From Phascolarctobacterium sp. (GTDB lineage Bacteria; Bacillota; Negativicutes; Acidaminococcales; Acidaminococcaceae), in contig NZ_JAUNOQ010000007.1 in NCBI RefSeq assembly GCF_030531065.1, forward strand, positions 1 to 64,000: DNA of 64,000 nt, in the 5' to 3' direction. Shown here one piece after another: positions 1 to 20,088 of the stretch; within the stretch, counting starts at the first letter, position 1; every line of letters begins with the position of its first letter. The notes under the pieces are model-generated. The model was given only the letters and a program-made list of their open reading frames with translations. It made no database searches and was not told where the DNA came from. Made by a program: the position numbers and the translations under genes.

Positions 1-64
1 CCATGACCTTTTTAAACATAAAATCGTTACTGATGGGCAGAGTGTCAAAGCTGCTATTCGTCAT
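1..64 (-). CDS. Rpn family nuclease/transposase-like protein, N-terminus only
   Basis: The minus strand from 64 down to the window edge encodes the same first 21 residues as the complete gene at 561-1379 (MTNSSFDTLPISND...), preceded by an AAGGAG ribosome binding site. The rest of the gene lies outside the window. It is a paralogue of the next gene, and the two share 289 bp of near-identical 5' coding and upstream DNA. Whether this copy is intact cannot be seen. Confidence 0.7.
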   Translation of the reverse strand, partial: MTNSSFDTLPISNDFMFKKVM

Positions 65-159
65 GTTCTTCTCCTTAATTATAACATATTTGCGGCTGGG
101 CCGCGCGGATAAATTATTTAGCGAATTATATTACAGCAAGATAATCACCGCCTTGAAAA

Positions 160-213
160 TAAAAAAGCAGTACCGCCGACTGCGTTTAAATTCGCAATCG
201 GATTGGTACTGCT
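160..213 (-). terminator. Intrinsic terminator (minus strand) inside the repeat
   Basis: A 9-bp perfect stem (AGCAGTACC at 166-174 with GGTACTGCT at 205-213) is followed on the minus strand by a run of T (160-166). It lies downstream of the gene at 561-1379 and probably ends its transcript. The same hairpin occurs in the second repeat copy at 1481-1528. The 30-nt loop is long for a terminator, which lowers confidence. Confidence 0.55.
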
Positions 214-289
214 AAATTTCGCTTAGAGTTTCTCAAAGAAATTCCTCATCGTAATCGCGGCGCGCTTTGGGAAGGCCGCCGCTTACTGC

Positions 290-560
290 TTTTTTAGTTG
301 TCAAAGAATTACTGATTTTAGTATAACAGCAATTTCGCTTACAGGCAAGCGCATATTCTTCCTAATCTAAAAATCAAATTTTCTCCCTTCCCCTCGCCAA
401 ACGCGCTGAGGAAAATGTTCGTTATAAATTTTCGGCGCGCTTCCTGGAACGAATCGTTCCCCAAAAGAATGTTTGTGATAAAAGCAACGCCCGCGCGTAC
501 TGCGGTAGTACGCCGGACGTTTGCGGTTTTAGAAAAAACGATTTAGTTTCGCGATAAAAT
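290..560. other. Intergenic stretch between Rpn paralogues
   Basis: No open reading frame with a ribosome binding site was found. The only structure noticed is a short inverted repeat, GTACT/AGTAC with a 5-nt loop, near 508-522. Nothing else recognisable was seen. Confidence 0.4.
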
Positions 561-1379
561 TTATTCTACGACTTCCAAGCCGTTGGCCTGCGCCAAGGCA
601 TAAACTTCTTCCTTACTTAAATCGGAATAGGCAATAATTTTAGACGCAGGCTCTTGGCATTTAAGCATTTTCAAAGCCATATCAATCCGCCCTTCCTTGC
701 GCCCTTCCATGCGTTCGTCCTTTAATCTTGTAGATAAAACCATATATTCTCGCCTCGCTTTCTTATCCTGACGCAATCGTATTACTTCCGCTTGCACTTC
801 CTGGGTAAATTCATCCGTAGGCACATTCTCGTTTACGTAACGCAAAAAGTTTTTGACCTGCGGCGTTACGTCTCCATGCGTACCCTGCGAATTTAAAAGC
901 ATCACGGTTACGTCGTTTTTTAATTCCAACGCTAAATTTTCCAAACACCTGCTTTTAAAAGTATAGACATAGCGCCCTTCGTTGAAAAAGTCAAAGGCGC
1001 AGATAAAAACTAAAACCAACGGGTTCAATTCGTCGAAGTCCTGCCCTTTTTGCAGCATATCCATGTCCATGATGGATTGGTAGTAGCGCGTGCGTTTTGG
1101 CAGTACCGGCTCGCCCGTCGTGTCGCCCAAAGTATTTTTCACCTGCATTTCCAGATTGTAGCGCGTGCGCTTCTCATCCGCAATAATAACATCCAGGCGC
1201 ACGCCCCGGCTGTCATAGTAAAGTTCGATGGTTTTTTCCGTTTCGGTGTAAATAATATCGGCGATTTTCTTTTGCATAATTGCGCCGACAAGTTTTTTAC
1301 ACAAGCGCTCATTCTCCATGACCTTTTTAAACATAAAATCGTTACTGATGGGCAGAGTGTCAAAGCTGCTGTTCGTCAT
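561..1379 (-). CDS. Rpn family recombination-promoting nuclease / PD-(D/E)XK transposase-like protein
   Basis: This 272-residue protein has the typical start of the Rpn/transposase-31-like family (LPISNDFMFKKVM), then a PD-(D/E)XK-type core: Asp in RLDVIIADE at about 58-66, followed by the ExQ of YNLEMQ about 12 residues later. The family comprises DNA endonucleases that promote RecA-independent recombination; many copies per genome and mobility are usual. The C-terminal third is charged (RLKDERMEGRKEGR) and ends in a short helix typical of the family. The ATG follows AAGGAG. It lies in a pair with the truncated paralogue at the window edge and shares that gene's leader. Family call is solid; in vivo activity is unknown. 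Confidence 0.85.
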   Translation of the reverse strand: MTNSSFDTLPISNDFMFKKVMENERLCKKLVGAIMQKKIADIIYTETEKTIELYYDSRGVRLDVIIADEKRTRYNLEMQVKNTLGDTTGEPVLPKRTRYYQSIMDMDMLQKGQDFDELNPLVLVFICAFDFFNEGRYVYTFKSRCLENLALELKNDVTVMLLNSQGTHGDVTPQVKNFLRYVNENVPTDEFTQEVQAEVIRLRQDKKARREYMVLSTRLKDERMEGRKEGRIDMALKMLKCQEPASKIIAYSDLSKEEVYALAQANGLEVVE

Positions 1380-1604
1380 GTTCTTCTCCTTTATTATAAC
1401 ATATTTGCGGCTGGGCCGCGCGGATAAATTATTTAGCGAGCTATACTACAGCAAGATAATCACCGCCTTGAAAAACAAAAAGCAGTACCGCCGATTGAGT
1501 TTAAATTCGCCATCGGATTGGTACTGCTAAATTTCGCTTGGGATTTCTCAAAGAAATTCCTCATCGTAATCGCGGCGCGCTTTGGGAAGGCCGCCGCTTA
1601 CTGC
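1316..1604. repeat. 289-bp direct repeat, copy 2
   Basis: Partner of 1-289. It covers the first 21 codons of the Rpn gene at 561-1379, its ribosome binding site and its upstream region, including a hairpin at 1481-1528. With the terminator at 1693-1730 it fills the gap between the Rpn gene and the dynamin operon. Confidence 0.9.
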
Positions 1605-1692
1605 CTGTTTGAATTTGTAAAAGCGTTCGCTATAAAATAATTATAGCAAAGATTTTGCTTGCGTTCAAGCGGCTTTAATTCGCCAATCGCAC

Positions 1693-1730
1693 AAAAACTA
1701 CCGCCGCAAAATTACGACGGTAGTTTTTTT
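1693..1730. terminator. Intrinsic terminator ending the dynamin operon
   Basis: The stem AAACTACCG/CGGTAGTTT has a 14-nt loop, with A-runs on one side and T-runs on the other, so it can work in both directions. On the minus strand it sits 50-80 nt beyond the last gene of the six-gene operon starting at 9374. Confidence 0.8.
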
Positions 1731-1776
1731 AAATGAATGCATATTGTAATTATCTTATTACTTAACAGCGGATTTT

Positions 1777-2190
1777 TTATTTCGTTATATCGAAAGGATT
1801 AGCATGATATTCCCCGGCGTGCGCTAACGGATCCTGATAACCTAACACCGTGCTGGCGTTACCGTTAAACGACAAATAATCTTCGCCGCCAAAAACATTG
1901 GGCAGCGTGGTCAGCGCCTTAGCGTGCCCGCGATAAATATCCTGCCCGCCGAAAATGTTATCGTGCGACGTTTCTACAATCTGTCCGTTTACGCGCACCT
2001 GCTCCTCGCCTGTTACCGGGTCGGTAATGCGCAGCACCTGCCTACCGTCTTCAAAATTTTGCAACATCGGCTCATGGTGATGCAGCAAAGAGCCGTTATG
2101 CATTACGTCCGCGCTGCCGTCATGCTGGGGAACGCTGCTATAATAACCGTCGCCATACTGGGCGTCAAATTGTGTAAATACGCTCATCAT
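1777..2190 (-). CDS. Small acidic protein, unknown function (paralogue of 2211-2609)
   Basis: About 137 residues, last gene of the dynamin operon. No family recognised. It opens with MMSVFTQFD and ends near DPLAHAGEYHANPF; the preceding gene has MMSIFSQFD and DPLAHAHCYHCHPF, plus a shared HxPML segment, so the two are distant paralogues. The ribosome binding region and start (CAGGAGGTGTGATGATGAGC) are also identical in the two genes. The middle contains a VTGEEQVRVNGQIVET segment and is acidic; there is no signal peptide or membrane segment. I chose the first ATG after AGGAGG; a GTG one codon earlier is possible. Function unknown; position suggests an accessory to the dynamin-like GTPases. 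Confidence 0.7.
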   Translation of the reverse strand: MMSVFTQFDAQYGDGYYSSVPQHDGSADVMHNGSLLHHHEPMLQNFEDGRQVLRITDPVTGEEQVRVNGQIVETSHDNIFGGQDIYRGHAKALTTLPNVFGGEDYLSFNGNASTVLGYQDPLAHAGEYHANPFDITK

Positions 2191-2210
2191 CACACCTCCT
2201 GCGCCAAAAA

Positions 2211-2609
2211 CTATCTAAAAGAAAAATTATTAGTCAGGTCGCCGTCCGGCGCAGTACGATAATGCTCCTGCACATATGTACCGTCGCTGCGATAATAACC
2301 GTCCACATGCACTAAAGGCCTGCCGTCGTCTCCAAGCAAAAACGGATGGCAATGATAACAATGAGCATGAGCCAGCGGGTCGTTCTGACATAAGAGGCAG
2401 TTAATATTACAATGATCCGCAAGCCCGCCATCCTGTTCTAACATAGGATGATAGTCTTCATATCCATAGGCATCGTTTCCATAATCCGCGGTCAACAGAT
2501 GGTCGCTATGCCCCGGCGTATCGTCCGCATAATCATATTGTTCCTGATAGTCGTAACTATAAGGGCTGTCCATTATATTATTATCGAATTGAGAAAATAT
2601 GCTCATCAT
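2211..2609 (-). CDS. Small acidic His/Cys-rich protein, unknown function
   Basis: About 132 residues, not recognised. The N-terminal half is very rich in Tyr and Asp (YSYDYQEQYDYADD). The middle carries a His/Cys cluster (HCNINCLLC...HAHCYHCHPF, around 65-90) that could bind a metal. It shares the N-terminal MMSxFxQFD and the DPLAHAxxYHxxPF motif with the gene at 1777-2190. Its start codon overlaps the stop of the upstream dynamin gene (TGATG), so translation is probably coupled. The preserved coupling and duplication argue that it is a real gene. Soluble, no signal peptide. Confidence 0.7.
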   Translation of the reverse strand: MMSIFSQFDNNIMDSPYSYDYQEQYDYADDTPGHSDHLLTADYGNDAYGYEDYHPMLEQDGGLADHCNINCLLCQNDPLAHAHCYHCHPFLLGDDGRPLVHVDGYYRSDGTYVQEHYRTAPDGDLTNNFSFR

Positions 2610-4411
2610 CACACCTCCTGCAGTTTCTGCAAATATTTTTGCACCTCGCCTATCTGCACCGTTAAACGCTGCACCTCCGCCGCAAGGTCGCTGCTCGCCG
2701 TTTCCTTGTCGCTGATTTCTGCGTCGATGCGCTCCTCTAGCGACGCCAAAATATCATCATAAGCGTACTCGGAATTTTTTATGATTACCGCGCACTTTTC
2801 ATCAATATATTTATGAATGTGTTCTCGCAAATTCAAAATATACTCTGCCATTTGCTCCTGAATAGCGGGGATAACCTGTTCCTTGGCCGACGCCAGCTGG
2901 TTTTCTAAAAATTTACGCTGTAAAAACGGAAAAGCCGCCATACTGATAAAAGGCATAAGCACCGGCCCGCCGATAAGCATCATCAGCCCCGCGCCTCCGG
3001 CCGCGATAGCGCCAGCCTTCACCGAAGAATTGGAAACATCCCTCGCCGTAATATTAAACCCGCGCGTATTGCCCTGCATCGTCCCGCCGAAGTTGGCGTT
3101 AAGCAATAACTTTTGATTAAAGCGATAGGAAATACCGCGGGCGATTTCCTTTTCCAAAGCGCGTAGCAAGACGTCCACATTGGGCGCGTAGCAAGCCACC
3201 CAATTTTCCAGCTCTCGCTGAATAGTTTTTGATATGCGCTGCTCTATATAATCCTTAAAATCCAGTCCCTTGTAAAACTGTACGTCGTCGATAATTTTAT
3301 CCTCGAACTTTTTATAAAAATACTGTAATGACTTATCCGCCATAGCGTAAATATTTTTCTTTTCCACTTCCGCATAGCTGCGGATATGGTCTTTGTTTTC
3401 CTGCTGCTCGCGCAGCATCTCCTGCAAATTCTGCTTTGCTTCGCGCAGCTTATCGACGTCCGCTGCCTTCAACGCCCGCTGGTTTTCCAGACCGCCGTTC
3501 AAACTTAAAAGCAGTTCCTGCATACGCCCCTTATAACGCTGCAACTTCAGCTCCTCCACGCGGCCTTCCTGCACGCAACGCCGCAAGGCTTCCTTAACCT
3601 CGTTAATACCCGAAGCCTCGATTAAAGCGGCGTTATTCTGCAAAATTCCCTGCAGCGCCATCTTAGCGGACAGCGGATATAATTGCAGCGTTTTCAGCTG
3701 ATGCTCATTTTCAGAAAAAGCGCGCATCATATGCAGCTGCAAATTTTCCAAAAAATCCGCGTCCTCCTCCTCGTCCACGCTGTCGTATTTATTGACAACG
3801 AAAATAATATTATCTATGCCCTGGGATAAAAGCTTTGTATCGATAAAATCCTTTTCCGTCTTTTTCAGCGGCGAATTAGCGTCCAGCAAAAACAATACCG
3901 TATTGGCCTTGGGAATAAAGCGATAAGTTACTTCGCAGCGCTGCTCGTTTAAATCGGATACGCCGGGAGTATCGACTATTACCGTGCGGTTTTCCAGCAG
4001 TTTAAAGGGATAACCGATTTTAATATATTTTATCTGATTGACGTCGCTGTCCAGATTTCTTGCCGAATAGCGCTCCAAAAAGCTTCTTTCTGCCCTCCCC
4101 TGCTGTACCGTGCCGTCCTGCATCACAATCTGCAGCTCCGGCTTTTCGTTGTACATGATGGCGTTAATAGTAGCCGTTTCCGGCAGCACGTCGGTGGGCA
4201 GCAAATCCTCGCCCAGCAAAGCGTTAATAAACGTGGACTTGCCGCGCTTGAACTCGCCCAGCACCACCACGGTAAAAAAATCGTTGGCCAAATCACGCTG
4301 CAGGTCGAGCAAAGCTTTCATGCAAGCTTCGTCTTTCTGTACAAAAGGCAGCGTCAGCAGCTCGTCCACATTTTGGCTAAACCTTTTCTTAACTTCCGCC
4401 ATATTCATCAT
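2609..4411 (-). CDS. Dynamin-like GTPase (second of tandem pair)
   Basis: 600 residues. The GTPase domain shows G1 GEFKRGKS (about 52-59), a G2 threonine in PETATINAI, G3 DTPGVSD and G4 NKYD. Long helical segments with high coiled-coil character follow (about 300-450). A glycine-rich hydrophobic stretch near 465-500 (AGLMMLIGGPVLMPF) fits a membrane-inserting paddle, and another coiled coil closes the protein. This is the layout of bacterial dynamin-like proteins, which bind and remodel membranes and often occur in adjacent pairs that assemble as heteromers. It overlaps the upstream dynamin gene by 4 bp (ATGA). Role is inferred: membrane remodelling or surveillance, possibly defence. Confidence 0.88.
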   Translation of the reverse strand: MMNMAEVKKRFSQNVDELLTLPFVQKDEACMKALLDLQRDLANDFFTVVVLGEFKRGKSTFINALLGEDLLPTDVLPETATINAIMYNEKPELQIVMQDGTVQQGRAERSFLERYSARNLDSDVNQIKYIKIGYPFKLLENRTVIVDTPGVSDLNEQRCEVTYRFIPKANTVLFLLDANSPLKKTEKDFIDTKLLSQGIDNIIFVVNKYDSVDEEEDADFLENLQLHMMRAFSENEHQLKTLQLYPLSAKMALQGILQNNAALIEASGINEVKEALRRCVQEGRVEELKLQRYKGRMQELLLSLNGGLENQRALKAADVDKLREAKQNLQEMLREQQENKDHIRSYAEVEKKNIYAMADKSLQYFYKKFEDKIIDDVQFYKGLDFKDYIEQRISKTIQRELENWVACYAPNVDVLLRALEKEIARGISYRFNQKLLLNANFGGTMQGNTRGFNITARDVSNSSVKAGAIAAGGAGLMMLIGGPVLMPFISMAAFPFLQRKFLENQLASAKEQVIPAIQEQMAEYILNLREHIHKYIDEKCAVIIKNSEYAYDDILASLEERIDAEISDKETASSDLAAEVQRLTVQIGEVQKYLQKLQEV

Positions 4412-6294
4412 CTAACCACCGCCTCCAATTTAACATATAGCGCGTTGATCTGCTCCTGTTGCCGTTGCAAGCCCGCGCGTATTTCTTCCACGCTCTGCGC
4501 TTTCGATTCTTTTTGTTCGATCAGCGCTTGCAGCTGCTCGTTCATCAAGGATAAGCGCTCTTCCACCTCGCTTTGCAAATCGCGGCACACCTGCTGCGCA
4601 TTACGCTTGTATTGTTCGCCTATTTTCTCGCTGAAGCCCTGCAAATTAGCTGCGTACTGACGGCGCACCTGCTCCTTGATTTTTACCTTATCATCGGCAA
4701 AAGGATTACCCCCGCCGCTCAAAAACCAACCCGCCGCAGCCGCCACAATCCCCACAGGCCCGCCGAACAAAGCGCCCGCTACTAAATACGAACCAATGGC
4801 TATACCCAAGCTATTATTCGTATTATTTTTGTGTCCGCCGCCGTCCGTCTGAATTTCTCCCAAAGACGCCCAAGCGTTGGTAATGGGCAAAGCGTCCGCA
4901 TCAAATTCCATATCCTGCCACAGCTTGCGCAACGTGTCCGCCGCTTCGCTGACATTTTCTTGCAGCAGTTTTTGCTGAAGTTCGTTGATATCTGTCAGAA
5001 ACTGCTTCTGCACAGGCGTAACGGCAGCTTCCACTAATTGTTTGATTTCCTGGCTGTCCAACGCATTGATATCTCCCCGGTAACCGTCGACGGCTCCCAT
5101 CGCCGCCTGTTTAATTTTATTTACCGCCGCGTCTGCCAGTTGTTCTACTTCCATCTGCCCGCTCAAAAGCTGAGTTTGCAAATATTGCACAATGCGTTCT
5201 GCCTCGCGTTTGGTTTTAGTAAATTTAGGACGCTCTTCAAATAGTTTTTGCTTTAAATCGTCTAAAGAATGATTTAACCCTTCCTGCTTGACGCCGATAT
5301 CGCGTTCCGCTTCTTTCAAAGCCAATTGGCAACGCGCCGCGTATTTACGCAATTTAGCCGCGCCCTTTTCTTCGCTCAAAAATTTGCCCAACGCCCGCTC
5401 AAATTCCGGGAACCCTGTTTCTTCCAGCGTATTGGGGCAATTTAATAAAGCCGTAGGCTTTAAAGTTTCACCGTTCTCCCTACGGCGGTACAGCAGCGCC
5501 TGCTTGCTGCTGACCATAAAAATGCGTTGGGAAAAGTCCTGCACGTCGACCAAATTGTCCAGCGCGTATTTTATAAGCCGTTCCTCTTGACCGACGACTT
5601 CATCCTTATAGTTAATGACGATAAAGATATCCTTAATATTATTGCCGACCACCTGCTCTACCAGAAATTCCTTTTCCGTTTCCGTCAGCAGCTGCGCCGC
5701 CGATAAAACCAGAATAGCCGCTTCGGCCTGTCGCAAATATCTGTAGGTAATCTCGATACGCCCCACGTTCAAATCGTTAGTGCCGGGCGTATCCACCACG
5801 TCCACCTGATTAGCGCAAAAGTCCAAAGGATAGGCTATCTGCGCGTAGGCAATATTGCCGAAATCGATGCTGTGCTTTTCCTGCCAAACCTTGGCGGCTA
5901 TATTATGCAGCATGGCAAATTTGTCGGGCTTGTTTTCCGTCTGCGCTTTGATAAGGTCAAATTCGTCCTTGGTAATCTGCTGCTCCTTGCCGTCCTTATA
6001 AAAAAGCTTAAATTGCGGCGTATCGCCGTAAACGATTTTGCTGATGACGTTGGTGGTAGCCTCCTTGCTGGCAGGCAAGATAGCCTTGCCCAGCATGGCG
6101 TTGACGAAGGTAGATTTACCGCGGGAAAATTCGCCGATGACTACCAAATTAAAACGCTCGTCCGCCAAACGCGCGGCGTCTTCCTGCAGGCGGCGCTGCG
6201 CGGCGGTCAGCTTTAAATCCTGCAAAAGTGAAAGCGTTTCTGCGATATGCTGTTGTAGTAATGATTTTTGTTGGTTGTAGTGTGTGAAGTCCAT
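4408..6294 (-). CDS. Dynamin-like GTPase (first of tandem pair)
   Basis: 628 residues. G1 is GEFSRGKS (54-61), G2 lies in KEATTNVI, G3 is DTPGTND. The expected G4 position reads INYKDE rather than the usual T/NKxD, a departure that could weaken guanine specificity. The middle and C-terminus are helical coiled coil, and a glycine/alanine-rich hydrophobic hairpin (about 485-530) is the likely membrane paddle. It is translationally coupled to the second dynamin gene (4-bp overlap) and follows the GNAT-like gene by 8 bp. Tandem dynamin pairs in bacteria typically form a two-component membrane tether, which I infer here. Confidence 0.88.
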   Translation of the reverse strand: MDFTHYNQQKSLLQQHIAETLSLLQDLKLTAAQRRLQEDAARLADERFNLVVIGEFSRGKSTFVNAMLGKAILPASKEATTNVISKIVYGDTPQFKLFYKDGKEQQITKDEFDLIKAQTENKPDKFAMLHNIAAKVWQEKHSIDFGNIAYAQIAYPLDFCANQVDVVDTPGTNDLNVGRIEITYRYLRQAEAAILVLSAAQLLTETEKEFLVEQVVGNNIKDIFIVINYKDEVVGQEERLIKYALDNLVDVQDFSQRIFMVSSKQALLYRRRENGETLKPTALLNCPNTLEETGFPEFERALGKFLSEEKGAAKLRKYAARCQLALKEAERDIGVKQEGLNHSLDDLKQKLFEERPKFTKTKREAERIVQYLQTQLLSGQMEVEQLADAAVNKIKQAAMGAVDGYRGDINALDSQEIKQLVEAAVTPVQKQFLTDINELQQKLLQENVSEAADTLRKLWQDMEFDADALPITNAWASLGEIQTDGGGHKNNTNNSLGIAIGSYLVAGALFGGPVGIVAAAAGWFLSGGGNPFADDKVKIKEQVRRQYAANLQGFSEKIGEQYKRNAQQVCRDLQSEVEERLSLMNEQLQALIEQKESKAQSVEEIRAGLQRQQEQINALYVKLEAVVR

Positions 6295-6302
6295 AAATCA
6301 AT

Positions 6303-6860
6303 TTAGTTATGTCTTATATTTTTATAAAAGAAGCTGTTATTAATACTCTCTTCATTATTATTTCTTTCTTCTCGACAGTTGTTTCCAATGTTAAATTTTT
6401 CAATTTTCTCTATTTCTTCATTCATACTAATAAATCTACATTCACATAACATTCTCTCAATATGTTCCCTTAGCCTATTATTAGCTCTTACGCATGCATA
6501 TATACAATCATCATCCTTTGTTAACTCTTCCCAATCAGGTACCAATGTTTGGAAATTTCTTAAGCATGTTGTCCCATATCTTGGTGCGCTTTGCGATTCA
6601 TTCGCAAAATTACCACGTTGATACTCATCAAAAATTCCTATTTCTATTTCATGACCATATCCTTTTATATCGTCCTTTATTGATATAAAAAAGAAACCTA
6701 CTTTATTTTCTCCGTCGCAAATATTATATAAATATGAATCATCCGGAACATCAACTCCTACTGTTAAATTTTCGTCTCCATTATACGCATCGGGATGATT
6801 GTGTATAAAATTCACTATAGCTTCTTCAAACCTATCAATTCTTCTTAATTGAATACACAT
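6303..6860 (-). CDS. GNAT-like acetyltransferase domain protein (tentative)
   Basis: 185 residues, clearly more AT-rich than its neighbours. The central part resembles a GNAT fold: a strand with EIEIGIFDEYQRG, then YGTTCLRNF, then a C-terminal CVRANNRLREHIERML..C.F segment, as in the last helix and strand of GNAT enzymes. A canonical RxxGxG/A acetyl-CoA loop is not evident, so activity is doubtful. The last 35 residues are Asn/Glu-rich and look unstructured. It lies between the Sel1-dynamin gene (27 bp) and the tandem dynamins (8 bp) in one operon. It may be an acquired regulator or modifier of the GTPases; that is inference. Confidence 0.5.
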   Translation of the reverse strand: MCIQLRRIDRFEEAIVNFIHNHPDAYNGDENLTVGVDVPDDSYLYNICDGENKVGFFFISIKDDIKGYGHEIEIGIFDEYQRGNFANESQSAPRYGTTCLRNFQTLVPDWEELTKDDDCIYACVRANNRLREHIERMLCECRFISMNEEIEKIEKFNIGNNCREERNNNEESINNSFFYKNIRHN

Positions 6861-6887
6861 TGTTATCTACCTCCGTAAGTTTAAAAA

Positions 6888-9374
6888 TTAAAATATTGCT
6901 AATAACGCCAACACAACCAATGCTCCTAAAATTGGCAGCAAGCAACCGGAGCTTTGCGAGGCTCTTGCAGTCTGCGCTTTACCGCGCCATTGCGCGGCAG
7001 CTTCTTTATTAACAGGAACATTACCCGTTCCCTGCTCCAAATATTCCGCTACCTTTTCCTGCGCTGCAATATGTCCTTGCTCAGCTGCTTTTTTATACCA
7101 TCTATATGCTTCTGCTTTATTTACAGCAATTCCGCCTGCTCCTTCTTCATAATACTTGGCAAGCATGTACTGAGCATCATCATAGCCTTGTTCCGCAGAT
7201 TTTTTATACCATTTTACAGCCTCGCTTCCATTTGCCTCAACGCCAATTCCGTAGTTTAAACACCTTGCCAAATTATATTGCGCATAAAGCTGCCCCTGTT
7301 CCGCCGCCTTTCTATACCATTCTACCGCTTCTTCTTCATCGACAGTTATGCCGCCCCCTCCTTCTTCCAAATAGCTACCTACCATATATTGGGCATTGGC
7401 ATCACCTTGTTCCGCCGCTTTTCTATACCATTTGTAGGCTTCTCCTTTATTGACGGCAACTCCCATTCCATCAAACAAGCAATCAGCCAAATTACATTGC
7501 GCATAAAGCTGCCCCTGTTCCGCCGCCTTTCTATACCATTCTACCGCTTCTTCTTCATCGACAGTTATGCCGCCCCCTCCTTCTTCCAAATAGCTACCTA
7601 CCATATATTGGGCATTGGCATCACCTTGTTCCGCCGCTTTTCTATACCATTTGTAGGCTTCTCCTTTATTGACGGCAACTCCCATTCCATTAAACAAGCA
7701 ATCAGCTAAATTCATTTGCGCTATCGCTAATCCTTGCTCCGCCGCCTTCCTATACCATTCTACCGCTTCAGATTTATTAACGATTACGCCTCCCCAGCCT
7801 TTTTCTAAGTATCTACCTACCCAATTTTGCGCTTCCGCATAGCCCTGCTCTGCCGCTTTTTGATACCAGGCAAATTTTTCTTCCGCATTAGAAGCGTAAT
7901 ATCGTCCCATAGCGTACTGCGCCGCCGCAAATCTTTGCTCGGCGCTCTTGCCAAACCATTGCAGCGCCGCGGCCATATCCCGCTCCGTTCCCACTGCGTC
8001 GTAATAGCAACGCCCTAAATTATATTGCGCCGCCGCCAATCCCTGTTCCGCCGCTTTAGCATACCACGAGCAGGCTTCCTCCGTCTTTTCTCTTGTTTCC
8101 AAGACGCTTCCGTATTCGTTTTGCGCACGCGGGTTGCCTTGCTCCGCCAAAACCTTGAGCCAATATTCGGCTTTGTCCGCATTGCCGCCGTCTTTATAAA
8201 AACGGTACATATTGATAAGCGCGCCTTCATGCTTTTTCAGAGCTGCCTTTTGGTAAAAATCCAAGGCTTTATCCGTATTTTGCAATACGCCGATGCCGCC
8301 GTCGTAAAGCACGCCCAACAGGAATAACGCCTGCTCGTTACGCCGCCCCGCTTCGCGCTCGCAATAATCTTGAATGGTAGCGATAGCAGTCCCCAAAATT
8401 TCTTCTATTTGTAGAATTTGCTGCTCGCTAGCAATATAAGCGGCGTAATCAACGTCCTTCTTCCGCGCGTTTTCTTCTTTCCAGGCGGCAAAATATTTAT
8501 TGAAATCGTTAAAATAATATCCCAATTCGTCCAAGAGCGTATTTAATTTGAAGACGTCGCGATGCGGCACCACCAACGTCATAATCGCCTCGTTCAGCGC
8601 CGATAAATTTCCTATTTGCTTTTTCAGCGCATTATTTTCTTTTTGCCCCTCCCAAGCGTACTTAGCCGAAATACCTATAACCGCCTGCACTTTGCCCTGC
8701 AAAGTTTTTTCGATTTTAGCCAAAAATTCCTGCGGGTCGTCTTCTTCCTCGTCGATAAGATCCATTTTATTAACCACGGCGATAGGTTTTAAACGCGGCG
8801 TCAAGCGATCCATCGCGGCAACTTCTTTCCTGCTAGCCGCCTGCATACTGGAAAACATCCACAAAACCGTGTCGGCCTTGTTTACAAAAGCTTCCGTAGC
8901 CGCCGAATGCTGTTCGTTGACGTCGTTCAAACCCGGGCTATCGATAATGCTGACTTGCCGTAAAATTTCAATGGGCATTTGCCGTTCCACATAATCTATA
9001 GATGCGTGGATCACGTTTTGCTGCGCGTCGTCGTTTACTGCCGTCAACCTGGAAAACTCTGCCGGACTATAAACCTTGCTATCGCCGTTGCGAAAATATA
9101 CTGTCAATTTATCCTGTGCACCATAGCACAGCTTGGTTACTACGGCTGTCGTAGGTTTAGCTTCCACCGCAGCAATTTCTTCGCCTACCAAAGCGTTAAT
9201 AAACGACGATTTTCCCGTAGAAAAAGAACCCATGACCATCAGCATCAAAGGTTCTTCCGTATGTTTAATAATTTCATCCAGTCCTGCGGCATATTTAGCT
9301 AACTGCTGCTTGCCCAGCTCCTGACTAACTGTTTGTAAACCGGCGATAACGTCTTTGACTTCTGCGATAAGCAT
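6888..9374 (-). CDS. Dynamin-like GTPase fused to Sel1 repeats, tail-anchored
   Basis: 828 residues. The N-terminal dynamin-type GTPase domain has G1 GSFSTGKSS (49-57), a G2 threonine in AKPTTAVVT, G3 DSPGLND and G4 NKMD. From about 345 to 800 there are 13 Sel1-like (TPR-related) repeats, recognisable by WYRKAAEQG and AQYxLGxxY. The last 19 residues are one hydrophobic segment (GCLLPILGALVVLALLAIF) with nothing after it, as in tail-anchored proteins. Sel1 arrays normally bind partner proteins, so this looks like a membrane-anchored GTPase with a docking arm. Two consecutive repeats are duplicated almost exactly at DNA level (7283-7720). First gene of a six-gene operon. Confidence 0.85.
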   Translation of the reverse strand: MLIAEVKDVIAGLQTVSQELGKQQLAKYAAGLDEIIKHTEEPLMLMVMGSFSTGKSSFINALVGEEIAAVEAKPTTAVVTKLCYGAQDKLTVYFRNGDSKVYSPAEFSRLTAVNDDAQQNVIHASIDYVERQMPIEILRQVSIIDSPGLNDVNEQHSAATEAFVNKADTVLWMFSSMQAASRKEVAAMDRLTPRLKPIAVVNKMDLIDEEEDDPQEFLAKIEKTLQGKVQAVIGISAKYAWEGQKENNALKKQIGNLSALNEAIMTLVVPHRDVFKLNTLLDELGYYFNDFNKYFAAWKEENARKKDVDYAAYIASEQQILQIEEILGTAIATIQDYCEREAGRRNEQALFLLGVLYDGGIGVLQNTDKALDFYQKAALKKHEGALINMYRFYKDGGNADKAEYWLKVLAEQGNPRAQNEYGSVLETREKTEEACSWYAKAAEQGLAAAQYNLGRCYYDAVGTERDMAAALQWFGKSAEQRFAAAQYAMGRYYASNAEEKFAWYQKAAEQGYAEAQNWVGRYLEKGWGGVIVNKSEAVEWYRKAAEQGLAIAQMNLADCLFNGMGVAVNKGEAYKWYRKAAEQGDANAQYMVGSYLEEGGGGITVDEEEAVEWYRKAAEQGQLYAQCNLADCLFDGMGVAVNKGEAYKWYRKAAEQGDANAQYMVGSYLEEGGGGITVDEEEAVEWYRKAAEQGQLYAQYNLARCLNYGIGVEANGSEAVKWYKKSAEQGYDDAQYMLAKYYEEGAGGIAVNKAEAYRWYKKAAEQGHIAAQEKVAEYLEQGTGNVPVNKEAAAQWRGKAQTARASQSSGCLLPILGALVVLALLAIF
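7283..7720. repeat. 219-bp tandem duplication inside the Sel1 array
   Basis: Two copies of a 219-bp unit (73 codons, two Sel1 repeats) lie at about 7283-7501 and 7502-7720 and differ at only a few positions. For example, the sequence CGCATAAAGCTGCCCCTG occurs at 7281 and again at 7500. The high identity compared with the other, diverged repeats points to recent duplication and possible length variation between strains. Confidence 0.9.
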
Positions 9375-9558
9375 TTAAACAATCCCCCTGTAATATTGCT
9401 TTATAAATTACTGTTTCTTCCCATACAATAAAATCCCGCTGCGCTTCTTTAGCCGCCTGGCGCAATAAGAGTGCCGGGAAATATTTTTACATTGACGCCT
9501 GTACGCGCCAAATTTTTCTGACGGCTGCTACTGAAAAAAATGACACATATTCAATTTT

Positions 9559-9586
9559 AGTATAGCACCCCGTCCCCCCCGGTCAA
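9559..9586 (-). promoter_or_regulatory. Promoter of the dynamin operon, G7 spacer
   Basis: Reading on the minus strand: -35 TTGACC (9586-9581), 16-bp spacer starting with seven G (9580-9574), then an extended -10 TGC-TATACT (9564-9559). The start site would be near 9552, leaving a leader of about 180 nt. A homopolymer in the spacer changes -35/-10 distance when it slips. The tpsB promoter has the same tract. Confidence 0.75.
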
Positions 9587-9611
9587 GCAAAAGTGCATCG
9601 AGCACTTTTGC
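9587..9611. promoter_or_regulatory. Perfect palindrome abutting the -35 box
   Basis: GCAAAAGTGC and GCACTTTTGC face each other across a 5-nt loop (9597-9601), ending exactly where the -35 hexamer begins. It could be an operator. A wider inverted relation (GCCTTGAA near 9610 and TTCAAGGC near 9659) encloses GC-rich DNA and makes a larger foldable element. Confidence 0.45.
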
Positions 9612-9744
9612 CTTGAAGCGCTGTCGCGCGAAGCGTTGCCAGCGAAGCGCAAAACAAATTTCAAGGCGCTGCACGTTAATCTTTAAATCAAGCATGGTCT
9701 GTACTTGCACAACCAATCTAGCCCGGCTGAATAAACCGCAAGCA

Positions 9745-9777
9745 AAAACGCCGCCGACGTTGTGTCAGCGGCGTTTT
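9745..9777. terminator. Intrinsic terminator of the Wadjet operon
   Basis: A 10-bp stem, AAAACGCCGC/GCGGCGTTTT, with a 13-nt loop and flanking A/T runs lies 20-50 nt beyond the stop codon of the last Wadjet-operon gene (9797). It separates Wadjet transcription from the dynamin operon promoter. Confidence 0.85.
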
Positions 9778-9796
9778 GTTATTTGTAACGCTTATC

Positions 9797-10411
9797 TTAA
9801 TTCAGTTCTGCTTCGTTATCCTCAATGGGAACCAGACTGTTATCGGAAAATGTGCCTAACGGCAGCGAGCATCTTTCCAGCCATTCTTCTGTAGCTAATT
9901 CCGGGATTGGGTCTAATAAACATTTTCGTCTCATACAATCCCGGCTCATATCCACAAGCTTCTGGTCATAGTTAGTCTGCAAAACCTTAAAAATCTCCCA
10001 ACGCACATCATCCGGCAAATGCAGTAAAGTAATCTGCGTCTTACCGGCAAATTCATAAATATCCATCACTTTAAAGCGAGCTCCCCGCCCTGCTATGACC
10101 CATCCCCAGTTTTCATCGTCAATGCTGCCAAGATCGCGAAAATGATTACTTAAAATAGCGTAGCGATGCGTGGTAACCATGCCGCCCACTCTCCATGAAG
10201 CATCAGTAAAGAACGGCACTCTGATAATCTGCCCTGCTTTATAGGGAGCCATTTCTTCCGTAGTTAAATTTATATCGCGCACATAAATAGATAAGCCGGG
10301 AAATAGCTCATTTAACAAGTCTTCTATTATTTCTTTTGTTAATTCCACCGTCAGCCTGTTATCCTCCTTGTATATCTCAAAAGCTTTCAAATATTTTTTT
10401 ATCTGCGGCAC
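9797..10411 (-). CDS. Unknown protein, fifth gene of the Wadjet operon
   Basis: 204 residues, no family recognised. It begins 9 bp after jetD in the same direction and precedes the operon terminator, so it is probably cotranscribed with jetABCD. It is acidic and soluble with no signal peptide. Visible features are a PFFTDASWRVGGMVTTHRYAILSNHF segment and a central NWGWVIAGRGARF segment. The start is the first ATG (MPQIKKYL). Wadjet needs only JetA-D, so this may be an accessory factor, a passenger, or an unrelated gene. Confidence 0.75.
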   Translation of the reverse strand: MPQIKKYLKAFEIYKEDNRLTVELTKEIIEDLLNELFPGLSIYVRDINLTTEEMAPYKAGQIIRVPFFTDASWRVGGMVTTHRYAILSNHFRDLGSIDDENWGWVIAGRGARFKVMDIYEFAGKTQITLLHLPDDVRWEIFKVLQTNYDQKLVDMSRDCMRRKCLLDPIPELATEEWLERCSLPLGTFSDNSLVPIEDNEAELN

Positions 10412-10420
10412 GCTTTAATT

Positions 10421-11635
10421 TTATCTTTGTTCTCCCAAACTAACAATCTCCTGCTCCAGCTTGACGTTATGCTCCAGCATATAATCGACCAGCTCGCGCA
10501 GTTCCGGGTTCCCGCGCAAGGACGCCAGCCGTTCCCGGTCGCGCTGCGTCAAGGGCAGCAGGCAGCTTTGGTGGCGCGCGTCGGCCAGCTCCCGCGCCGA
10601 CATTTTGTACATGGCGAAGGGCGCGCCCGTCGAACGGCGCAGATGCTCGTAAATAAACAGGCCCCCGGCGTCGATATCGCCGAAATGGTAGTAACGCGCG
10701 CGCGGGTTATCGCGGTAAACTTTCTTCAAAAAATCCCGCTGCCCGCGCGACATAAAGCCGCCCAGATAAAAATACGCCGTGTCCGCGGCTTGCAAACGCT
10801 GGTAGGAAGTTTTATTTTCCACCGTCATGAAGGCGCCCGCGCGCACAGAAATTTTTTCGATACGCGCCAGCTCCGCCGCCGCGAACTCTATGCCGCCCTC
10901 AAACAAGCCGACGTCCACTTCGCGCCCCGCAATCGTCAAAACGATTGCTCCCTTCAGGCACAGACGCGGCTGCTCCTTATAAATTGCAAAGCGCTGCAAA
11001 ATTTCGTCGTTTAATTCTTCTTCGGCGCAAGGCGCGGCATAGCTCCGCCGCAAAATCGACGCGACCGCCTCCAGCGTATTTTCTTCAAAATATTTGCTGC
11101 CACCGTAAATCAGCATGGATGCTTCGCGCAAATATAATTGGCGCTCGTTGCGCTCCACAAAAAGCAGCGCCCTGAAAATATCCTCCAGCCTGGACAAATC
11201 CTTGGGAACTGCGCGCCTGGCCAACGCTTCTTTCAGCTTGGCGCATTCGGCGGTAAGCGCCCGCGTTTTGCCGTCGTAAGCGTCTATTAAGCGCCGCAAA
11301 TTTTCCAAAGCTTCATCGCGCGGCTCGTAGCCGTATTTTTCCGCGAGATATTTTTCTATCGCGCCGACGCTGGCGTCGACTAAATAAATTTTGCGAATCT
11401 CGCTGCTGAACGGAATTTTTTCGCACGTCAGCCAGCCTTTTTGCGCCAGCGACTCGACGACTGCGTTCACCGCCGCCACCTTGGCCAAATCGGCGTCGTT
11501 ATCGTTATATTTTTTATACAAACGGTTGGGCGCGAGCTGCGTGCGCCTTTGGATAAGATTGGAGCCGTCGTCCTTTTTGCTCCTGCGGTACTTTTCCACC
11601 AGCGATTTTAGCAGTTGCTCTTCATATTGCGGCAT
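10421..11635 (-). CDS. jetD: Wadjet system nuclease subunit JetD
   Basis: 404 residues. The C-terminal half contains the Toprim-like signature RYYHFGDIDAGGLFIYEHLR (about 315-334), with the DxD expected of topoisomerase VI A / DUF2220-type nucleases. The N-terminal part is the winged-helix/coiled-coil DUF3322-like region. In Wadjet systems JetD cuts closed circular DNA once the JetABC motor has extruded the plasmid, restricting plasmid transformation. It overlaps jetC by 14 bp. Catalytic residues look intact. Confidence 0.88.
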   Translation of the reverse strand: MPQYEEQLLKSLVEKYRRSKKDDGSNLIQRRTQLAPNRLYKKYNDNDADLAKVAAVNAVVESLAQKGWLTCEKIPFSSEIRKIYLVDASVGAIEKYLAEKYGYEPRDEALENLRRLIDAYDGKTRALTAECAKLKEALARRAVPKDLSRLEDIFRALLFVERNERQLYLREASMLIYGGSKYFEENTLEAVASILRRSYAAPCAEEELNDEILQRFAIYKEQPRLCLKGAIVLTIAGREVDVGLFEGGIEFAAAELARIEKISVRAGAFMTVENKTSYQRLQAADTAYFYLGGFMSRGQRDFLKKVYRDNPRARYYHFGDIDAGGLFIYEHLRRSTGAPFAMYKMSARELADARHQSCLLPLTQRDRERLASLRGNPELRELVDYMLEHNVKLEQEIVSLGEQR

Positions 11636-14600
11636 AAGCTTTCTCCTCGTGGAACTGGATGACGCCCAGCTGCATATCGCCCGCGCCGACGCGCAGGGCC
11701 GGCAGGATAACTTCGCATTCGTTGCCTATGGCTTCCGTTTTATCAGGCGAACAGAAAATCATCTGCAATTTCTGCCGCTTCATAAAATCCAGCATAATCT
11801 GCACGTTATGCGGGTCCATTTTCGCAAACGGCTCGTCGATAAACGCCAGGCGCGTGGAATTGGCCTTTTGGTTGTAGTACATCAAAAGCGCGGCGATTAA
11901 AATCAACAGGTACGGTATCTGCACCTCCGCGCCGGAATTGTAGCCCGTTTGCCTGGACAGCTTCGCCTTGCTGAGCACGGCGTTGCTGACGAGAATTTCA
12001 TATTCCATATAATTGCGGTAATCGGCAAAGCGGCTTATCAAATCTTCGCTCTTGCCGGACATGATGCCGTCGATAATCCGGCGCAATTCTTTTGCCAAAG
12101 CCTCGCCGCGTTCGTCGTCCGTTGCGGCGAAGCCTCCCAGCGTAAGTTCGCCTTCGCCCGCGCCCAGCTCCGTCCGCTCTTCTAAATATTTTGCGTACTC
12201 CAAAATTTTAGCGTAATCGCTGCCGTCCGCTTTGCCGCGCACTTCAAACTGGTACTTGGCGGCGAAGTTCAATTTGCTCAACTCCAGATTGATGCGGCGC
12301 AAATCGTCCTTAGCGGCTTCGCACAATTCGTAAACGCGCAGCACGAATTCTTTTTTAAAAACGCTTTCGTACTTAGCCGTCTGCTCCCGCAAGTTTTGCC
12401 GGACTTCCTCAAAATCGTCCATCCTGATATGCTCGAAGCGCGCCGCATAGTCGGCTCTGTCGGCAAAGTCCAAAGCTTGGTTTCTATTATCGTAAGCGCC
12501 CTTCAAGCTGTATAAAATTTCCCGGCTCTGGTTAATGCGCTGCTGCAAACGTTCGCGGCTTTGCGGCTGCAAAATGTTGCCGCGCTTCGCCCCGCCCAGA
12601 TAAGCGTCGTACTCTTCTTTGGCCTGCCGCGTCAAAGCGTAATCTTCAACTTCGCATTGGGCGAACGCTTCGCGCTGTTCCCGCAGCTCGGTCGCGGCTT
12701 TTTTAAGAAACGCTTCGCCCTGCTCCAGCTCGATTTTCAAAGACGTTTTCCGATAATGCAGTCGCTGTTGCTCCTCGTCGCAAACCTTTTTCTGCTCCTC
12801 CAGTTCGCCGAGCAGGATGGTCAGTTCCATAAATTCGCTGTTCTGCTTCTGCGCCTCTGCCAAATCGCGGTACTGTTTTTCGCTTTCACGTATCTGCTCG
12901 CGCAGCGCCTGCAATTTTTGCCGGACGCCGTAATCGTATTCGCCGAAAGCTTCCTGGTACTCCTGCAAGCGCTTGCGCAAATTTTCCGTGTCCTGTACGC
13001 GCGCCAGCAGCGTTTTCTTTTCCTGCTGCAAACGCGCGGCTTCTTTTTCCGCGCGCTTCCTGTTTAATTCAAAGATCCTGTGCCCCAAATAATAATAGCC
13101 GATACGGTCGAAGCGCAAAAAATAACTATCCATCGCTACGGACACGCGCCCTTCGACGGAAATGGCGTTTTCAAAATTACGCGCCTCGTCTAGCTTGACG
13201 CCGTGCATCCTGCCCAACTGGAAATCGAAATAGCGCTGCGCGACCCGGTTTTTAATTTCCAACTGGCGCACCACGGAATCGTTTTCCACTTTGATTTGCT
13301 TGCGCATTAAAAGCTTGGTGTTAAAGATATGCGCGTATTTGAATTTAGAGCCGTTCAAAACCTCGTCCGCGATATCGTAATACTGCGGCTCCACCAAAAT
13401 CGCGTAACGGCGCGCCCCTAAAAAAGCCTCGACGCTGTCGCGCCACGCTTCGTCCTTGAGGGCGACGACGTACTCACAGGCAAATTTAGCCTGCGCCTGT
13501 AAATTGCGTTTCGCTAATTCTCTGTTGATTTCCTCGCGCAGGCCCACGTAATCGGGGATGTTTTGGTAAGCGTTGCGGTGTTTCCTGCAATCCTCGATAA
13601 TTTTATATTGCGCGGCCAGATTTTTTTCTAAGCTCGCCAGGTCGTCGCGCATTTTGCGCAGCTCCCCTACCTGCCCGTCGTAAAATTCAAAAACGAAATT
13701 ACGCAAGGAGGCCGCGGCCTTTTGCTTAACGGCTTCCGCATAATCCGCGCTGAGCAAATTTGCCAAAACGTCCTTTTCTTCGACGTTCGCCCCGTGGCTT
13801 TGCAAAACCTGCAGCAAGCCGTCTACCTGCCGCTGAAAACGCTCCAGCTTCGCCGACTTTTCTTCCAGCTCGCGCTTTTGCTTTTGCAAAATTTGCAGCC
13901 GCTCCCGCGCTTTTTCTAAAAGCTGCGCGCAATCCATGCGGCTCAGACCGGCTTCCGTTTCGCGCAGCTTACCGGCGATAAAATTACTTTTGTCCTCCGC
14001 TTCGCGCAGCGCCTGCCCGACGGTCTCCGCTTCCCGCCGCGTCAGCTCCGCTTCCTGCTCGCGCTGCGCGATAGCGTTTGCTAAATCCTTCAGCCCTTTA
14101 TAAACGATTTTGATATCGTCGCGCTTTAACAGCTTTTCTTCGTTATCCAGCGCGTCGAACGCCTGCAAAATCGCCTGCAAATCGTCCATTTCCCGGCTGA
14201 TAACTTCAAAACCGCTTTGCAATTTTGCGATATTTTCTTTGGCTTCGATAAGCTTGGCAAAATCCACCGCGCGCTCCGCCAAAACGCTATTGCGGATAAA
14301 TTCGTCGATTTTCGCTTCCGGTTTATAAGTCATCAGCCCGCGCAATTTGCGCAAATAAATCTGCAAATTATGCGAATCCAGCTTCAAGCCCGTCATGCGC
14401 AAAAATTTTTGCAAGCCCTGCTCCCTGTTCAGCAGCTCTACTTTATAACGCTGGCGGAACTGCGTCGCGCTGTACGGCAGCAGCAAACCGTCCTGCGTAT
14501 AAGTATGCTCGACCTTATCTAAAGCCGCGTTATCCAGCGCGTACCTGAAAACCTGGCAGTTATTGCTGGGCGGGGTTTCGATAATCGTGCCCAGAATAAA

Positions 14601-14924: not shown

Positions 14925-15541
14925 ACGCGCTCCTCCTCTTCCGCCGTTTCCGCGCCGTCAGCTTCCTTCATATATTCTTGCGCCGTCGTTTTAAACTGCG
15001 CCAGGTCCCAGCTGAATTGCAGGGACGGGTACAAGGTTATTTCCTGTTCTTCGCTGTCGTCGTCCTCGTCGTAATCGATAAGATTATACTTTTTGAATAA
15101 TTTAAAGGCTACGCGCAGTTCCGTGCTAATCACCGGCACGCCGAAGAATTTTATTTTATCGATGATATCGCCCTTGGCGGCCGTGATTCTTTCGCTGTAG
15201 CCCACGTTTTCCAAATAAATTTTCCACAACACCAACAGCAGATGATATTGCAAAGTAGAAAAGCGCACTACGTTGGCCTGCTTGAGCCCGACTTCGTTTT
15301 CGTCCTCTTCATTAGCTATAAGCATGGCCAGACCGATTTTATCGTCGACGTGCAGATCGAAACCCATGGCGCGCAAATAAACCGCCAAATCCTGCCTGTT
15401 GGCTTCCCGCGACGCGAACGCGTATAACTTGGCGTCCTTATCGCGCAGCAAAAAAGTTCCTTCCAATAATTTACGCACGCAGCGTTTAAAAAGCAGCGCG
15501 TATTCTTCTCTAATCGTTAATTGCAAATTTATTTCGTTCAT
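14921..15541 (-). CDS. jetB: Wadjet subunit JetB (DUF4194-like)
   Basis: 206 residues, MukE-like small subunit. It has a tandem winged-helix character, with the segment LQYHLLLVLWKIY in the middle and an acidic tail (DEDDDSEEQE) before the last strand. It lies between jetA and jetC with 4-bp overlaps on both sides. In the known complex JetB bridges the JetA kleisin and helps clamp DNA. The assignment rests mainly on gene order and size, supported by the winged-helix pattern. Confidence 0.8.
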   Translation of the reverse strand: MNEINLQLTIREEYALLFKRCVRKLLEGTFLLRDKDAKLYAFASREANRQDLAVYLRAMGFDLHVDDKIGLAMLIANEEDENEVGLKQANVVRFSTLQYHLLLVLWKIYLENVGYSERITAAKGDIIDKIKFFGVPVISTELRVAFKLFKKYNLIDYDEDDDSEEQEITLYPSLQFSWDLAQFKTTAQEYMKEADGAETAEEEERV

Positions 15542-16950: not shown

Positions 16951-16983
16951 TTCTTCACCCCCTTCAAAAATTTTTCTCGCTTA

Positions 16984-17068
16984 TTTTTACAAATCCTCGA
17001 TAACGTCCGCCGTCTGCCTTACCGCGTCGCGGAACTCTTCCAAAACGTGGTCGATGACTGCCAACGGC
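16984..17068. repeat. 85-bp direct repeat (left copy): displaced 3' end of the aminotransferase gene
   Basis: Identical to 24978-25062, which contains the stop codon and last 27 codons of the aminotransferase gene. Here it is an isolated fragment without the rest of the gene. Both copies have the same orientation and bracket the restriction/SIR2-HerA island, as expected of attachment-site-like boundaries. Confidence 0.95.
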
Positions 17069-17304: not shown

Positions 17305-17349
17305 AATAAGCCTTCGATTTTCTGATGTTATTTATTTAAGGATGGTTTG

Positions 17350-19053: not shown

Positions 19054-19064
19054 TCTACCCCTCC

Positions 19065-20063: not shown

Positions 20064-20088
20064 TTAGTTCCACTTCCTTCCTTTGCCA

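Follow-up and report, generated by a model that had tools for sequence, protein, structure and literature searches.

A conserved module of three dynamin-like GTPases and a small motif protein in a defence island of Phascolarctobacterium sp.

The window analysed here, a 64,000-nucleotide stretch of the genome of the gut bacterium Phascolarctobacterium sp., contains an operon that encodes three different dynamin-like GTPases (DLPA, DLPB and DLPC) together with two variants of a small acidic protein, S (Table 1). The grouping of these genes is genuine and conserved: it recurs in 33 loci from no fewer than three phyla, more than chance would give. By gene content, the core comprises four components, namely DLPA, DLPB, DLPC and S, which are inherited together and move horizontally. 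Its presence in distantly related bacteria, and also on a plasmid, makes it look like a membrane-acting defence machine. With moderate confidence, we favour its reading as a mobile membrane-surveillance module of four components directed against phages or plasmids; the composition is observed directly, while the function in defence is what we infer from it.

All six ORFs lie on the - strand between positions 9374 and 1777. Starting from 9374, the order is DLPC, a 185-aa gene, DLPA, DLPB, S2 and S1, with successive gaps of 27, 8, -4, -4 and 17 bp, so that DLPB overlaps each neighbour gene by 4 bp. This is the layout that the original prediction, made from the sequence alone, had described, that is, six genes with gaps of at most 27 bp or overlaps. 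It had also enclosed the unit between one promoter and one terminator. The terminator is convincing, as a G+C-rich hairpin is followed by T5. The promoter is less secure, as a 10/12 match is one of 30 such sites in 12 kb and thus only weakly indicates that the operon is transcribed from there. The Wadjet side closes with its own terminator-like hairpin (9761-9747).

Table 1. Features of the three-dynamin operon and of the island that contains it.
Feature	Coordinates	Strand	Description	Basis or remark
Defence island	1..24746	.	Inserted island: PDDEXK transposase and repeats, three-dynamin operon, Wadjet I, HerA-SIR2, MTase, type IIG RM	PADLOC; congener synteny
Terminator	1693..1730	-	Intrinsic terminator of the three-dynamin operon	Fold z-score -4.83; 0/200 shuffles as stable
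S1	1777..2193	-	138 aa; small acidic protein, C-terminal helix with QDPLAHA motif	
S2	2211..2612	-	133 aa; small acidic protein, DPLAH motif, C-terminal HVDGYYRSDGTYV..HYRTAPDG..NNF module	
DLPB	2609..4411	-	600 aa; predicted soluble dynamin-like GTPase, hydrophobic paddle-like segment at ~aa 476-494	Dynamin_N; 2j68, 5owv_A
DLPA	4408..6294	-	628 aa; predicted soluble dynamin-like GTPase, hydrophobic paddle-like segment at ~aa 496-514	Dynamin_N; PDB 2j68
185-aa gene	6303..6860	-	Variable slot between DLPC and DLPA	Earlier called GNAT-like; fold unproven
DLPC	6888..9374	-	828 aa; predicted dynamin GTPase (aa 1-~345), Sel1 repeats, C-terminal tail anchor (aa 810-828)	Pfam Dynamin_N, Sel1
Promoter-like site	9559..9586	-	TTGACC-N16-TATACT upstream of DLPC	10/12 consensus, extended -10

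The three large ORFs match Dynamin_N (Pfam) above the cut-off (3.4e-24 for DLPC, 2.3e-28 for DLPA and 2.1e-28 for DLPB) and keep the G1, G3 and G4 motifs intact (GxxxxGKS, D[ST]PG and N[KY]xD), features that assign them to the dynamin-like protein superfamily. The closest solved fold is that of Nostoc BDLP1 (PDB 2j68), which is matched by the family profile of DLPA at 1e-72 over positions 29-629, that is, through the stalk, by that of DLPB at 9e-51 and by DLPC at 4e-18. Profile matches to Cj-DLP of Campylobacter jejuni, like BDLP1 a membrane-active protein, reach 4e-39 for DLPB (5owv_A) and 5e-33 for DLPA (5owv). By sequence, each protein has a putative membrane-binding element, paddle-like in DLPA and DLPB and a tail anchor in DLPC, and membrane binding of the paddle type would be expected by analogy with BDLP1. 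For this last protein, we know of no DLPC-type anchor and no described S partner. DLPA and DLPB differ from each other and are encoded as neighbours, as in a heterotypic DLP pair; in 33/33 loci they adjoin or are separated by DLPC alone, and DLPB orthologues are 23-51% identical. No relative of DLPB was found in viral contigs. The one hit in a phage collection is an unverified, unannotated fecal scaffold.

DLPC had been described as a Sel1-fused, tail-anchored dynamin, and the protein in the window fits this description, since Dynamin_N is joined by Sel1 (Pfam, 5e-92, 10 significant stretches) and the C-terminus is a hydrophobic tail anchor, GCLLPILGALVVLALLAIF (KD 2.8). Across relatives, the part of DLPC that is conserved is its GTPase domain, kept in 30/33 loci. 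The outer part varies between loci and may be Sel1, TcaA NTF2-like, SH3b, a beta-helix or a second GTPase; Sel1 is, by these comparisons, one of several interchangeable C-terminal modules. The membrane anchor, of which there is usually one, is found at the tail, at the N-terminus or internally.

The two small proteins are acidic (pI 4.8 for S1 and 4.3 for S2) and related, as had been proposed, with 36% identity over 58 aa (E 6e-7). A [DN]PL motif is common to all S proteins, and DPL is found in 13/1827 small ORFs close to dynamins versus 0/1922 farther off. S1 is of the Selenomonadaceae type, with an N-terminal FDxxYG helix, a repeat beta-sheet (N.fGG.D.y) and a C-terminal QDPLAHA helix, and matches to its profile across 380 class genomes track the module. 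No S protein has a match above threshold in Pfam or NCBIfam, where only sub-threshold matches to the DUF3892 end-motif appear. The structural model of S1 has a pLDDT of 72; a Foldseek search of the S model against the PDB and viral libraries gave no significant match (best IceA2, E 0.04), so that no function is read from the fold. A single conserved motif with variable C-termini, which include HNH nuclease domains on two S proteins, both from Selenomonadaceae (Anaerovibrio An883 and S. montiformis), and the RTxPDG..NN module of S2 on Bacilli and plasmid S proteins, is what would be expected if S were the cargo or effector of a toxin system, delivered, sequestered or released at the membrane by the dynamins, and the two variants in the window are in line with this. 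Such a system is nevertheless improbable, given that most S proteins stop right after the motif or have no catalytic domain, that neither a secretion signal nor an immunity gene was seen with S, and that S is usually one per locus.

The 185-aa gene is not conserved and is probably a passenger, in a slot whose content varies. Its product has no match in Pfam, NCBIfam or the PDB and its AlphaFold model (pLDDT 38) is too poor to use; the idea of a GNAT-like protein thus finds no support. As no convincing homologue was found in 380 class genomes, and the slot between DLPC and DLPA holds other genes or is empty in relatives, the gene falls outside the core. Consequently, the proposed six-gene unit is reduced to its conserved part, the three dynamins and S.

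Conservation was assessed by comparing neighbourhoods at 80 loci out of 480 relatives, and the comparison set comprised 33 distinct relatives from Negativicutes, Bacilli, Peptococcaceae, Armatimonadota and Acidobacteriota. The original prediction would have fallen if homologues were scattered without each other. They are not: in addition to DLPA, present in 33/33 loci, DLPC is in the cluster at 30/33 and S in 30/30 loci whose contig runs on beyond DLPB. Distance matrices for DLPA, DLPB and DLPC correlate with one another at r = 0.82-0.86 over 31 loci (permutation maximum 0.25, n=2000), a co-evolution that in part reflects host phylogeny. In a pooled dynamin tree, DLPA and DLPC form clades and DLPB does not. 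Three-dynamin operons of Clostridia were rejected as the same module, as they hold other dynamins, a ~325-aa partner instead of S and housekeeping surroundings.

The latter operons, one of which adjoins ribosomal genes, and the frequency of operon pairs among bacterial dynamins (PMC6104087) might suggest that these are ordinary housekeeping dynamins, serving division or membrane homeostasis, whose grouping is due to chance or to co-expression. This is very improbable and already contradicted by the distribution of the module, which is absent from six congeners (1/7, including the host, has it) and from every other family member searched, is present in only 4/398 genomes of the phylum, and occurs as a plasmid copy and within an inserted island.

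The insertion site of this island is uninterrupted in three syntenic congeners, and its other flank is on contig C9, beside the same repeat as the island. JetA-D of Wadjet (PADLOC) are directly alongside the operon, as had been noted, and the plasmid copy of the module, complete on Lysinibacillus pFN9B, adjoins AbiE-type genes (AbiEii/AbiGii and DUF6088). Known defence genes are thus nearby and the distribution is patchy, as is the case for defence-island genes. Among 125 flank genes scanned with PADLOC, Septu and type I RM were found at some loci; since just some of the relatives have known defence genes at their flanks and the scan had no matched control set, it counts as weak evidence. Indeed, at many Bacilli loci, the flanking genes resemble ordinary metabolism.

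Defence is not the sole function that fits these data, since antibiotic or envelope stress has likewise been linked to solved relatives such as DynA, IniA and Cj-DLP: the first two respond to membrane-acting antibiotics and the last has been proposed to act in repair (PMC6104087, PMC8844932). The module could therefore be a general machine for envelope stress or membrane repair (antibiotics, peptides or osmotic damage) that is in the island by accident, with the outer domains of DLPC reading wall or membrane damage instead of phage. The extracytoplasmic-type TcaA_5th or SH3_3 domains that follow the anchor in Bacilli DLPC do suggest cell-wall reading, and the Bacilli loci devoid of defence neighbours agree with it. 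Nevertheless, we regard this as rather unlikely in view of the extreme rarity and patchiness of the module, the dense defence island, the AbiE-type neighbours of the plasmid copy and the HNH fused to S. Of the proposal of a membrane-acting defence or stress system, membrane association and the defence island are upheld; phage defence is still an inference.

Several known systems resemble parts of the module. Eleos, counted as anti-phage in defence catalogues, and ETEC LeoABC are likewise multi-gene dynamin-like systems, whose GTPases and helical regions are distantly homologous to those described here (PADLOC scores of 53-85 bits for LeoA and 22-61 bits for LeoBC; 1e-24 and 3e-17, respectively). 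Unlike the Leo models, the module has an anchored third dynamin with an exchangeable domain and S proteins, for which no Leo counterpart was detected. Membership of the named NCBIfam subfamilies was rejected, as the three dynamins score 44.8, 19.1 and 17.1 bits for LeoA/HP0731, the Eleos subfamily (NF041922, cut-off 325), 71.8, 52.0 and 46.4 bits for DynA (NF052648, cut-off 1600) and 18, 12 and 26 bits for the clamp-binding dynamin CrfC (NF007368, cut-off 1146). DynA of Bacillus subtilis protects against phage through delayed lysis, with two GTPase heads that act together (PMC8844932). It is a single fused protein of ~1200 aa without S or an anchored third dynamin, whereas the module is encoded in separate genes. 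Cj-DLP1 and Cj-DLP2 of C. jejuni are, like DLPA and DLPB, heterotypic dynamins encoded side by side; they tether membranes as a linker-joined tetramer, and their operon also holds an HcpA-like gene (PMC6104087). They differ from the module in being two dynamins with no S, fused anchor or defence island described. HcpC, the solved relative cited for the HcpA-like gene, is a Sel1-like repeat protein. No described system combining three dynamins and S was found in the open-access literature searched, and within that literature the earlier statement to this effect stands.

If the module acts in defence, DLPC would be both the anchor at the inner membrane and the sensor of a disturbance there, for instance by incoming phage DNA, by lysis proteins or by conjugation. 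Through its short motif, S would couple DLPC to a heterotypic DLPA:DLPB complex, and so play in trans a role similar to that of the random-coil linker of Campylobacter DLP2 in cis. Contact between S and the dynamins, the linker role of S and sensing by DLPC are suggested by architecture alone. On sensing, DLPA:DLPB would assemble with GTP on the membrane through the hydrophobic paddles, and the assembled pair may tether, seal or remodel the membrane, so that phage release is blocked or delayed or the cell is killed. As S carries HNH in a few lineages, the same trigger may there also free an effector that cuts nucleic acids. It is also conceivable, and we suggest it tentatively, that the module represents a new immune architecture, in which a membrane-anchored plug-in sensor dynamin, whose outer or scaffold domain is exchangeable and comes in at least five kinds, is connected by a motif adaptor, sometimes HNH-armed, to a generic two-dynamin remodeller.

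Bacterial dynamins have been described singly or in pairs, and the cue that tells them where and when to act is an open question. To these, the module adds a conserved third dynamin, with an anchor and with an outer domain that can be exchanged, together with S, a small motif protein recognised by none of the family libraries searched; with both supplied, the sensing and coupling steps become directly testable. If phage or plasmid defence is confirmed, membrane-remodelling immunity, as in DynA and Eleos, would be extended to a multi-part modular form present in at least three phyla and, more speculatively, the module would bear on the origin of eukaryotic antiviral dynamins such as the Mx and IRG proteins. 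The new architecture, if real, would correspond in bacteria to an immune receptor whose action is to reshape membranes.

The operon comprises six ORFs with the positions, strand and spacing first described for it (gaps of 27, 8, -4, -4 and 17 bp), and its three large ORFs, DLPC, DLPA and DLPB, encode genuine dynamin-like GTPases, with Dynamin_N matches of 3e-24, 2e-28 and 2e-28 and intact GxxxxGKS, D[ST]PG and N[KY]xD motifs in every one of them. S1 and S2, both small and acidic, are indeed related to each other. The terminator is strong (z = -4.8), and the proposed promoter is a weak match to the consensus. By contrast, the label "GNAT-like" for the 185-aa gene between DLPC and DLPA found no support. 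A search for homologues of this gene returned none that was convincing, and the same slot holds an NlpC/P60-like gene and a 332-aa gene in Anaerovibrio, a 396-aa gene in locus L066 and nothing in some relatives. The gene is treated as a passenger.

Locations of the operon genes, of neighbouring features and of related loci
Feature	Coordinates	Strand	Description
DLPC	6888-9374	-	dynamin GTPase, Sel1 repeats, C-terminal tail anchor
185-aa gene	6303-6860	-	
DLPA	4408-6294	-	dynamin-like GTPase, Dynamin_N match
DLPB	2609-4411	-	dynamin-like GTPase, Dynamin_N match
S2	2211-2612	-	small acidic protein
S1	1777-2193	-	small acidic protein
Transposase region	1-306, 561-1379, 1316-1623		PD-(D/E)XK (Rpn-type) transposase gene flanked by near-identical (94%) repeats
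204-aa gene	9797-10411		directly 3' of JetD
Aminotransferase	24981-26222		
Exoprotein and transporter	51191-60205		2450-aa haemagglutinin-like, then ShlB-type, by eye
Plasmid locus with the module	L200 (NZ_CP106864.1, 392-21360)		pFN9B, Lysinibacillus capsici
Operon remnant	L187:9546-11061		S gene and DLPC fragment
Sister-type operons	L205:7378-14909, L206:8163-16082		
Clostridia operons	L142:4092-9173, L146:9782-14986		

DLPA, DLPB, DLPC and S, the family of small proteins with a [DN]PL motif, form a conserved module. With DLPB as the query, close relatives were found among 380 genomes of the class in twelve further genomes, all from one other family, with 38-51% identity across the aligned part (full length unless the contig ends) and the same gene pattern around them. 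The co-occurrence search proposed with the original prediction drew on one scan over about 85,000 species (loci L082-L161), where all ORFs were searched with profiles for DLPA, DLPB, the GTPase of DLPC and the S motif. The 33 distinct loci (L082-L115, minus the duplicate L113) have hosts that include Selenomonas, Anaerovibrio, Schwartzia, Paenibacillus, Planococcus, Oceanobacillus, Neobacillus, Jeotgalibacillus, Peptococcaceae, Desulfitobacterium, an Armatimonadetes MAG and Acidipila. DLPA adjoins DLPB in all 33, with only DLPC intervening in three, and DLPC lies within the cluster in 30. S is also found in 30, most of the sequences counted being among those that built the final motif profile; the other three loci (L084, L089, L105) stop at DLPB or within it. 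On the opposite strand lie three of the S matches (L101, L104, L107), two of them marginal (E about 1e-3). A profile from Selenomonadaceae and the window alone already detected S in Bacilli, Peptococcaceae and Acidipila, and a simple DPL pattern marks 13 of 1827 small ORFs close to the dynamins versus 0 of 1922 farther off. Over 31 loci, the pairwise distances of the three dynamins are correlated with r = 0.82-0.86, 2000 permutations giving 0.25 at most; host phylogeny contributes to this correlation. The claim that no described system has this composition held within the open literature searched, where no three-dynamin operon with such partners was found.

S proteins are small and mostly acidic; many have FDxxYG at the N-terminus, and they share the core [YF]x[DN]PLxHxxxYxxPxL. 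A second module, HYVDGYYRSDGTYVxGYxR...RSNPDGNPFNN, precedes or follows this core in Bacilli and on the plasmid, whose S protein has the module order of S2, while S1 is of the Selenomonadaceae type, with N.fGG.D.Y repeats. In two Selenomonadaceae, the S protein continues into an HNH domain (PF01844, 2e-5 and 8e-6). Family libraries gave no name for S, the end motif alone nearing DUF3892 below its cut-off. The predicted model of S1 (pLDDT 72) combines a helix with an open repeat beta-sheet, a disordered region and short helices that carry the motif, and a fold search with it gave no significant match. Strong S matches occur in 13 of the 380 class genomes, including one with S at a contig end (G123) and one with a decayed operon remnant (G266). 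This remnant, in a Selenomonas relative, occupies the same chromosomal spot as L086, next to the same RluA-like gene; with this neighbour identified by eye, it is read as a module that has decayed or been lost where it stood.

A search for classical transmembrane helices in DLPA and DLPB found none; each has a hydrophobic, paddle-like segment. Their profiles match Nostoc BDLP1 (1e-72 and 9e-51) and also Campylobacter Cj-DLP. In DLPC, the GTPase domain is kept and the remainder is exchangeable among relatives: Sel1 repeats (the window, L084, L085, L088, L098), a MORN-like region read by eye after a transmembrane segment at aa 479 (L082), a right-handed beta-helix (L092), TcaA_5th NTF2-like domains (L094, L097, L103, L109), SH3_3 (the Lysinibacillus plasmid) or a second Dynamin_N (L088). 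A single anchor is usual in DLPC; it sits at the tail, at the N-terminus or around residue 590-660, and in this last case a long C-terminal part lies beyond it. TcaA and SH3b domains are as a rule extracytoplasmic, which makes it plausible that these parts of DLPC act as outward sensors or bind the wall. All three window dynamins score far below the curated cut-offs for LeoA, DynA and CrfC.

A sister type in Paenibacillus, Cohnella, Clostridium and two independently drawn genomes (L118, L122, L132, L157, L205, L206) has the order DLPA, DLPB, a small NvFGGxDyYd..GHsepN repeat protein and a third dynamin of 1083-1301 aa; thus, the four-part plan extends further. By eye, an AbiEii-like nucleotidyltransferase is close by in L205. 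The three-dynamin operon of Clostridia (L125-L161) is of another kind: its dynamins measure about 590, 690 and 590 aa, a conserved ~325-aa gene separates the second from the third, and a zinc-ribbon gene is often present. Since the copy in Ruminococcus adjoins what seem to be nusG and genes for ribosomal proteins, this operon looks core rather than mobile.

The island in the window holds a type IIG RM with MTase, HerA-SIR2, Wadjet I and the dynamin module, and the PDDEXK transposase gene lies at the contig end. Over 20 stretches related to this transposase and repeat region occur in the genome, and they probably broke the assembly between contigs C9 and C10. In three congeners (G001, G004, G005), the aminotransferase is directly followed by a short gene that looks SRPBCC/cyclase-type; in the source genome, this gene sits at the start of C9, and the first 82 bases of C9 match the repeat with which the window's contig begins. 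By this arrangement, at least 24.7 kb has been inserted. None of the six congeners searched has the module, and across the phylum it occurs in 4 of 398 genomes, two of which carry the related type 2. A full copy on plasmid pFN9B sits between AbiEii/AbiGii-type genes, DUF6088 genes and integrases; the plasmid also carries the chloramphenicol/florfenicol efflux gene fexA. An uncontrolled tally of 125 flank genes of relatives contains Septu, type I RM and candidate defence genes, in a minority of loci. Elsewhere in the window, the 204-aa gene, for which Pfam, NCBIfam and PADLOC gave no match, may belong to this Wadjet operon as an accessory, and the exoprotein and ShlB-type transporter are a probable two-partner secretion pair.

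The composition, co-inheritance, anchors and mobility of the module are direct observations. Among dynamins studied elsewhere, DynA clusters at the membrane and delays phage lysis (PMC8844932), and Cj-DLP1/2 form a membrane-tethering tetramer joined by a random-coil linker (PMC6104087). A module of this kind might serve general envelope repair, which seems rather unlikely, or effector delivery, which we consider improbable. We lean towards a membrane-acting defence, in which DLPC would be the membrane anchor and sensor, S would act as a coupler via its DPL motif and the DLPA:DLPB pair would reshape the membrane, so that phage release would be blocked or delayed or the cell would die.
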